From assembly GCA_009923495.1 (NCBI GenBank), contig RFTJ01000012.1, positions 1-40,020 of the forward strand: a stretch of DNA of 40,020 nucleotides. Direction: 5' to 3'. The translations under genes and the position numbers were made by a program. Shown here in pieces: positions 14,618-16,227 of the stretch. The stretch comes from Actinomycetota bacterium (lineage in GTDB: Bacteria > Actinomycetota > Actinomycetes > S36-B12 > UBA5976). The notes beneath the pieces are model-generated. The model was given only the letters and a program-made list of their open reading frames with translations. It did no database searches and was not told the origin of the DNA. Each line of letters starts with the position of its first letter. The stretch's first letter is position 1.

Positions 14618-14626
14618 TGCTACAAT
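14618..14626 (+). promoter_or_regulatory. Extended -10 promoter of the infC-rpmI-rplT operon
   Basis: TGC-TACAAT matches an extended -10 element (TGN followed by a TATAAT-like hexamer at 14621-14626). Transcription would begin at about 14632-14633, on or next to the ATG of a 28-codon reading frame, giving a leader of about 170 nt ahead of infC. No clear -35 box is seen, which is acceptable for an extended -10. Confidence 0.6.
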
Positions 14627-14631
14627 CTCAC

Positions 14632-14718
14632 ATGACCGATGTTTCCGCTACGGCGGGCTCATCTACAAGCGGATTCACATCCCACCCGCACCGCCGAGCA
14701 GGCGTCGGGTCGGTCTAG
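14632..14718 (+). CDS. Candidate leaderless upstream ORF in the infC leader (28 aa)
   Basis: An open frame of 28 codons beginning ATGACCGAT and ending TAG at 14716-14718. Its ATG lies five bases after the -10 hexamer TACAAT, so the mRNA would start on or within a base of it; no Shine-Dalgarno is present. The peptide begins MTDVSATAG and ends HPHRRAGVGSV. Its last ten or so codons form both arms of the strongest hairpin in the leader (14684-14710), so a ribosome translating it would open that structure. I do not recognise the peptide. It may be a regulatory leader peptide or simply a by-product of a transcript that starts at an ATG. Confidence 0.4.
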   Translation: MTDVSATAGSSTSGFTSHPHRRAGVGSV

Positions 14719-14803
14719 AGCAGTCGCGTAAGTGACTTGTGCCTACGGGCCTGCCTCTGGTTGATGTGATTTCACTTGCCACATTTCGACCACAGGAGGA
14801 CAT
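14632..14803 (+). ncRNA. Structured 5' leader of infC (candidate cis-regulatory RNA)
   Basis: About 170 nt without any other gene. Three local hairpins can be drawn. (1) 14684-14710: ACCCG and CGCC pair with GGCG and CGGGT around a GAGCA loop. (2) 14722-14737: AGTCGC pairs with GTGACT (one G-U pair) around a GTAA tetraloop of the GNRA class. (3) 14741-14750: GCC pairs with GGC around TACG, a UNCG-class tetraloop closed by C-G. An alternative pairing joins 14728-14735 to 14772-14779 over eight positions and excludes hairpin 2. CCTCT at 14754-14758 can pair with GGAGG of the infC ribosome site (14795-14799). There is no T-tract terminator, so any control would be translational or Rho-dependent. 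Pairings were drawn by eye. Confidence 0.5.
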
Positions 14804-15598
14804 ATCAGTATCGAAACCCGCATCAATGATCGAATTCGCGTTCCAGAAGTTCGACTTGTAGGGCCAGCCGGTGAACAAATCGGCATAGTCGCAATCGAAG
14901 ATGCACTGCGGTTAGCTTTTGAAGCAGATCTTGACTTGGTCGAAGTATCGCCCGAAAGCAAGCCTCCTGTCTGCAAACTAATGGACTTCGGCAAATTCAA
15001 ATACGATGCAGCGGTTAAAGCACGAGAGTCTCGTAAGAATCAGGTCAACACCGTTATCAAAGAGATGAAACTTCGCCCCAAGATTGATAACCATGACTAT
15101 GAGACCAAGAAAGGTCACATCTTACGCTTCTTGAATGCCGGCGATAAAGTCAAGATAACCATCATGTTCCGCGGTCGCGAACAATCGCGTCCAGAACTTG
15201 GATACCGACTATTGCAGCGACTTGCTGCTGACATCGGTGAGATGGCAATAATTGAGTCATCGCCCTTGCAAGATGGTCGAAACATGACCATGGTGCTCGC
15301 ACCAGTTCGCAAGAAGACCGCACCTACTAAGCCAACAAAGCCAGCCGAAACAGTTGTGCAGCAACCCGTTGTGCCAGCTGAAGTGGCTGTTAAGCCAGAA
15401 GTTGTTGCAACCGAACCTGAAGTTGCTACGACCGAGACAGCAGAGCAAGCGGTTGTCGCACCAGCTAAGAAGGCTGCGGCCAAGAAAGCGCCGGCCAAGA
15501 AGGCGGTAACCGAGGCAACAGATGCTACTCCTGCGAAGAAAGCTCCAGTGAAGAAAGCGGTAGCCAAGAAAGCAGCCACCAAGAAAGCCGAGTCGTAA
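14804..15598 (+). CDS. infC: Translation initiation factor IF-3, AUC start, long Ala/Lys-rich tail
   Basis: IF-3 binds the 30S subunit, keeps it apart from 50S and checks start codons. The conserved N-terminus ([20 protein letters not shown]) begins at an ATC at 14804, four bases after AGGAGG at 14794-14799. Between the upstream in-frame TGA (14762-14764) and this point there is no ATG, GTG or TTG, and the first in-frame ATG at 14936 would delete 44 conserved residues, so a rare start codon is required. Rare AUU-class starts are the known device by which IF-3 represses its own synthesis. The core (residues 1 to about 172) is followed by about 92 residues rich in Ala, Lys, Pro and Val, with repeated AKKA/PAKKA units resembling histone H1-like tails. 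Downstream are rpmI and rplT. Confidence 0.95.
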
Positions 15599-15642: not shown

Positions 15643-15837
15643 ATGCCGAAGAATAAGACGCACAGCGGTGCAAAAAAACGTTTCCGGGTTACTGGTTCCG
15701 GCAAGTTAATGAAGGAACAGTCAAATAAGCGCCATCTACTTGAAAGTAAATCAAGTAAGCGCACTCGTCGACTTTCTGTTGATCAGGTTTTGTCCCCAGG
15801 CGATGCCAAGAAGGCAAAGAAATTACTCGGTCGCTAA
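15643..15837 (+). CDS. rpmI: 50S ribosomal protein L35
   Basis: A 64-residue, highly basic ribosomal protein recognised by [21 protein letters not shown] and the C-terminal [11 protein letters not shown]. The ATG at 15643 is preceded by AAGGAG at 15629-15634. It stands between infC and rplT in the order conserved across bacteria, with a 44-base gap to infC and a 27-base gap to rplT. Confidence 0.98.
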
Positions 15838-15864: not shown

Positions 15865-16227
15865 ATGGCACGTGTAAAAAGAGCAGTTAACGCAGCAAAG
15901 AAGCGTCGTGAAGTTTTAGAGCAGGCAAGTGGCTACCGTGGTCAGCGCTCACGCCTGTACCGCAAGGCAAAAGAGCAAGTTACCCACTCGATGGTGTACG
16001 CATATGCAGATCGCCGTACTCGCAAAGGCGACTTCCGCAAGCTTTGGATTCAGCGCATCAACGCTGGCGCTCGAGCGAATGGACTTACTTACAACCGCTT
16101 CATTCAAGGATTGAAGATTGCTGAAGTTGAGGTTGACCGTCGGATGCTCGCCGAGCTTGCGGTTAACGAGCCAGCAACTTTCGCTCAATTGGTACAGGTT
16201 GCAGCTAACGCTCTGCCAAAGGACTAA
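15865..16227 (+). CDS. rplT: 50S ribosomal protein L20
   Basis: L20 binds 23S rRNA early in 50S assembly. The 120-residue protein has the family signature throughout: [55 protein letters not shown] and a conserved NRFIQGLK. A good AAGGAG lies at 15849-15854. In several bacteria L20 represses this operon by binding a leader RNA, which makes the structured leader ahead of infC relevant. The TAA stop is also the first half of the -10 element for the next gene. Confidence 0.98.

Follow-up and report, generated by a model that had tools for sequence, protein, structure and literature searches.

What controls the infC-rpmI-rplT operon of this actinobacterium, whose genome comprises 1.45 Mb, and how widely is that control shared? 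The window, a stretch of 40,020 nt from contig RFTJ01000012.1 (assembly GCA_009923495.1), carries the three genes in this order, with a divergent DUF1844 gene as the upstream neighbor (Table 1). The initial annotation had proposed that the infC leader is a lineage-specific translational switch, set by translation of a 28-codon open reading frame or by binding of ribosomal protein L20. For comparison within the genus, we used leaders of 17 members, 13 of which were aligned for an eight-helix structure.

Table 1 Features of the infC leader and operon, with window positions
Feature	Positions	Strand	Details
Extended −10 promoter element TGC-TACAAT	14618–14626	+	TGNTANNNT 5′ of core (counts in text)
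Open frame ATG..TAG	14632–14718	+	28 codons; judged incidental; unconserved in genus
P0, 5′ strand GACC	14634–14637	+	Probable RNA start; genus helix 100% paired
P0a, variable hairpin	14638–14663	+	7/10 pairs with both-side changes in genus
Segment A, CAAGCGGA	14666–14673	+	AA dimer (14667–14668) and 5′ side of P1; alternative partner is segment C
Hairpin P1	14671–14682	+	14671–14674 × 14679–14682; 97.5% of cells paired in A1, 99.4% in A2
C, then P2 (ACC..GGT)	14683–14710	+	Contains the nine-pair hairpin of the initial annotation
P0, 3′ strand GGTC	14712–14715	+	
Closing helix	14716–14760	+	TAGAG 14716–14720 × CTCTG 14755–14759; G14760 × C14715; around P3a and P3b
P3a, GTAA loop	14722–14737	+	Inside closing helix
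P3b, TACG loop	14741–14750	+	Inside closing helix
Terminal hairpin	14754–14796	+	Predicted to cover start of Shine-Dalgarno sequence; segment C in loop
Segment C, TTCACTTG	14771–14778	+	Conserved partner of A; homologous to 5′ arm of relatives' terminator
infC Shine-Dalgarno AGGAGG	14794–14799	+	GGAG ≤16 nt from start in 175/180 leaders
infC	14804–15598	+	Start codon ATC; Pfam IF3_N and IF3_C
rpmI (L35)	15643–15837	+	Pfam Ribosomal_L35p
rplT (L20)	15865–16227	+	Presumed feedback ligand; Pfam Ribosomal_L20

The promoter element was found as annotated. Among 180 leaders, 114 carried TGNTANNNT 5′ of the conserved core versus about six by chance, mostly 7–10 nt ahead of GACC. A transcription start near 14632–14634, and hence on or next to the ATG at 14632 as first suggested, is thus well supported by comparison, and the RNA 5′ end probably coincides with the first P0 strand.

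Folded alone, the window leader was moderately more stable than shuffled sequences (z −2.1), with 5 of 200 shuffles as good. Because this single-sequence evidence is weak, the case for the structure rests on comparison. In the 13 aligned genus leaders, the eight helices (P0, P0a, P1, outer P2, inner P2, closing helix, P3a and P3b) had 92.6% of cells paired, compared to 29–43% for slid controls, and 18 of 43 pairs showed changes on both sides versus 7.7 after shuffling. None of 500 shuffles matched the structure on pairing or covariation score. Pairing reached 82–96% of cells in the last three helices, with CTCTGG in the 3′ part of the closing helix pairing with CTAGAG, and P2 contains two invariant, consecutive G–C pairs (14685–14709 and 14686–14708). 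The initial annotation's nine-pair hairpin at 14684–14710 and its two hairpins capped by GTAA and TACG are all present in the window, and neither loop sequence is retained in relatives. Absent from that annotation were the GACC/GGTC helix (14634–14637 × 14712–14715), P1, the invariant AAGYGG...CCCACC motif and the closing helix. Three members of the same genus (L004, L007 and L018) have a different 5′ part without the GACC/GGTC helix and keep P1 and P2.

The structure extends far beyond the genus. Leaders from the same order contained the core AAGNGG-P1-CCAYY in 98 of 99 cases. Both-side changes also exceeded shuffled expectation in alignment A1 of 40 leaders (70 cells versus 28.9) and in A2 (107 versus 50.8), which makes the covariation strong. 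R1, a model built from A1, detected the element on the sense strand within ~300 nt 5′ of infC at 79 of the 80 loci taken from named actinobacteria, including those of Mycobacterium, Nocardia, Rhodococcus, Amycolatopsis, Kribbella and one Streptomycetales metagenome-assembled genome; the element is therefore not lineage-specific as had been assumed. Of 396 genomes sampled evenly over the phylum, 74 matched at an E value of 0.01 under strict filters, and all 30 inspected matches preceded infC. Among 109 dereplicated leaders, 47 contained both GACC and GGTC, where independent occurrence would give 29.8; P0 as a universal helix was rejected, its support covering many lineages and not all. On this comparative basis, the leader is a conserved structured RNA beginning at the predicted transcription start, with GACC/GGUC around AAG-Y-[P1]-C-ACC-[P2]-GGU.

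A known Rfam leader was rejected as its identity: the window gave no match at the gathering threshold, and 20 leaders gave no relevant one at E values up to 10. For RF00558 (L20_leader) specifically, there was no match in the window at gathering, in the 20 leaders at E values up to 10 or in the window's own genome. A search of open-access journal papers likewise retrieved no described actinobacterial infC leader structure, in agreement with the initial annotation, which knew of no described family of this form.

Competing pairings, also anticipated in the initial annotation, do exist in the leader, but the conserved one differs from that named. The proposed pairing of 14728–14735 with 14772–14779 has 8/8 pairs in the window, but in the genus 69.9% of cells were paired versus 68.5% in shuffles, and we rejected it. 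The conserved alternative joins CAAGYGGA (14666–14673, segment A) to 14771–14778 (segment C). This A:C pairing comprises 7/8 pairs with one mismatch in the window and 8/8 in most of the genus, where 90.8% of cells were paired versus 37–47% when slid. Nearly all leaders contain a downstream segment that can base-pair with the 5′ arm of P1 (A, CAAGYGGAG). Set against all downstream sequence, A scored z −5.4 with its own compared to permuted partners; A also paired better with its own terminator arm than with other leaders' arms (z −4.4), with an upstream control at 0.37. Composition accounts for part of the A:C signal, as a control with reversed sequences gave −2.0. In relatives, a terminator-like hairpin with a T run has segment C as its 5′ arm and loop. 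Such hairpins were detected in 23 of 67 leaders at the order level (6.5 expected), 38 of 58 at the class level (10.9) and 16 of 24 at the phylum level (5.1). The two states, P1 with the terminator versus A:C, are mutually exclusive. One distant member of the phylum (L221, 1500–1660) shows the core followed by a clear hairpin and T run just 5′ of infC, forming a compact attenuator.

The output appears to differ in the window's own genus. The scan for terminator-like sites gave none in the window's leader, and we rejected an intrinsic terminator as its output; terminator-like hairpins across the genus showed little excess (4 of 17 versus 1.9 expected). In predicted folds with a generic infC start appended, the window's Shine-Dalgarno sequence was unpaired at 0.04 with P1/P2 enforced versus 0.62 with A:C enforced through the homologous C segment; the corresponding genus means were 0.24 and 0.46, from relatives that are not independent of one another. 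Masking of the ribosome site, as first suggested, is thus consistent with these state-dependent values to the extent that the predicted folds hold. The strand assigned to it, CCTCT at 14754–14758, either closes P3 or, alternatively, covers the Shine-Dalgarno sequence. It fits the model in the window and its nearest relative, but perfect 5/5 complementarity to the Shine-Dalgarno sequence occurred in 2 of 13 aligned leaders and the rest mostly had 4/5 or worse. Given the missing terminator and the lower accessibility in the P1/P2 state, the output in this genus is probably translational, the least certain step of our model. That the leader acts here on transcription instead, in a Rho-dependent manner or by pausing, we regard as unlikely, though a serious competitor: relatives use terminator-like hairpins and the terminator scan is blind to Rho-dependent sites, but the window leader lacks such a hairpin, the genus has little excess of them, and ribosome-site accessibility differs between the states.

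Which ligand might operate the switch is suggested by the core itself. In RF02541, the H39/H40 site of 23S rRNA reads GGU-CCCUAA-G-U-[H40]...[H40]-C-ACC-GAA, with G pairing with the C after H40 and ACC with GGU. The leader core matches these letters in a permuted strand order, a likeness noticed after the fact. The pattern AAGY-helix-C[AG]CC lies at the H39/H40 site in 3/3 actinobacterial 23S genes (0.2–0.3 per gene by chance), with one further match elsewhere in each; genes of relatives were used because the organism's own 23S gene is assembled only in its 3′ part. E. coli 23S rRNA has identical letters at this site. L20 touches helix H40/41 in the ribosome (PMC2672003), and known L20 leaders conserve an AA dimer and two consecutive G–C pairs of the rRNA site, which are separated by a helix in a newly reported case (Eckert and Weinberg, PMC7247131). 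Here, the AA dimer is invariant and the C–G pairs occur in 40/40 and 38/40 leaders of A1. The broader hallmarks of L20 leaders, a location 5′ of genes including rplT and a conserved structure with covariation, are likewise present. Counting against mimicry, Y opposes A as C·A in about half of the leaders. The H40/H41 junction AAGUGGG was also considered as the model for AAGYGG and rejected, since it agrees in no more than six letters and offers no CACC side, H39/H40 being the better match. These data argue strongly that the core imitates the H39/H40 site and that L20, already named as an effector in the initial annotation, is the putative ligand.

Gene context cannot separate L20 from L35 or IF-3, since infC is invariably accompanied by rpmI and rplT in these genomes. 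The same switch might therefore respond to IF-3, L35 or a combination; infC leads the operon, and in E. coli IF-3 regulates its own gene (PMC10931766). We nevertheless consider a ligand other than L20 quite unlikely: the invariant motif carries the published L20-leader hallmark and is similar to the rRNA site of a 50S protein, L20, whereas IF-3 is known to exert its control at the start codon, where the ATC of infC can serve IF-3 separately.

Taken with L20 as ligand, we favor with reasonable confidence an L20-responsive switch, conserved among actinobacterial infC leaders, that would use a terminator in relatives and Shine-Dalgarno masking in the window's genus. Surplus L20 would bind the core through its imitation of the H39/H40 site and keep A inside P1, so that A could not pair with C. 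For most relatives, this would let the terminator form and stop transcription; in the window's genus, without a terminator, the C-containing hairpin would form and hide the infC ribosome site. With little L20 present, A would pair with C and the operon would be expressed. The sequence data are best read as an L20 autoregulatory leader of a new structural class, one whose output stage can be exchanged. The further-reaching proposal of a phylum-wide L20 sensor of independent origin, in which H39/H40 was rebuilt in permuted order, AAGYGG became the switch strand and the output was swapped from terminator to ribosome-site masking in the window's lineage, stands in our view at an even balance.

Among known systems, the Firmicutes L20_leader (RF00558) of the B. 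subtilis infC operon is alike in its place 5′ of infC-rpmI-rplT and in mimicking the L20 site. Its terminator forms on L20 binding (PMC6097659), and most actinobacterial relatives resemble it in the competition between a terminator-like hairpin and an alternative pairing. It differs in that its model finds no match here, the actinobacterial scaffold consists of P0 enclosing P1 and P2 and the window's genus lacks a terminator. A deltaproteobacterial L20 leader candidate (Eckert and Weinberg, PMC7247131) shares the AA dimer and the two consecutive G–C pairs, separated by a helix, but belongs to a different lineage and, as listed in that paper, a different gene context. Control of E. coli rpmI-rplT also involves L20 feedback at translation by rRNA mimicry (PMC10931766). 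There, however, L20 acts through a long-range pseudoknot and an irregular hairpin and leaves infC outside its control, whereas the actinobacterial element precedes infC.

In M. tuberculosis, the infC 5′ UTR is 326 nt long and abundant in a transcriptome study (PMC3207917), whose passages on this UTR describe its expression and similarity to the infA 5′ UTR and propose no L20 site or switch. Since R1 matches mycobacterial infC leaders, this UTR is very likely the same element. The study gives a ratio of UTR to coding region of 2.6 and 4.9, an abundance that fits attenuation. A constitutive, stabilizing 5′ structure without any switch, its sequence conserved for another reason, is improbable in view of this excess and because terminator-like hairpins and pairings that exclude one another are both conserved across the phylum. 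If the L20 switch is correct, actinobacteria including Mycobacterium and Streptomyces-type organisms would gain an L20 autoregulatory leader missing from Rfam, which would help to explain the long, abundant M. tuberculosis UTR. It would also add one more scaffold carrying the same small L20 recognition motif, whose invariance makes direct mutational tests easy.

The leaderless 28-codon frame is present in the window (ATG at 14632, TAG stop at 14718) but unconserved. Among the aligned leaders of the 17 same-genus relatives, most lack the homologous ATG, which occurs only in the window's own genome, the closest relative and one other genus member. Two stops at codons 22–23 break the frame in the closest relative, and a stop follows after three codons in the other. 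The conservation of the short frame expected initially thus failed to appear, and the genus leaders contain no conserved short coding frame of the kind that marks a leader-peptide attenuator. As judged from these comparisons, the frame is a coincidence and not part of the mechanism, and translation of an unconserved frame cannot be the general trigger; we rejected it as regulator. That it sets which pairing forms is very improbable even with its ATG at the predicted transcription start, given the absence of this ATG from most of the genus, the two stops that interrupt the frame in the nearest member and the poor conservation of the pairing proposed for it.

A second layer of control, dependent on IF-3, is likely to reside in the infC start codon, which is non-AUG at the homologous place in 99/99 order-level leaders (96 ATC, two ATT and one ATA). 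The C-terminal tail of IF-3 (15320–15598) is long, with lysine-alanine repeats (AKKAPAKKA), and infC open frames of relatives differ widely in length, from 195 to 408 aa.
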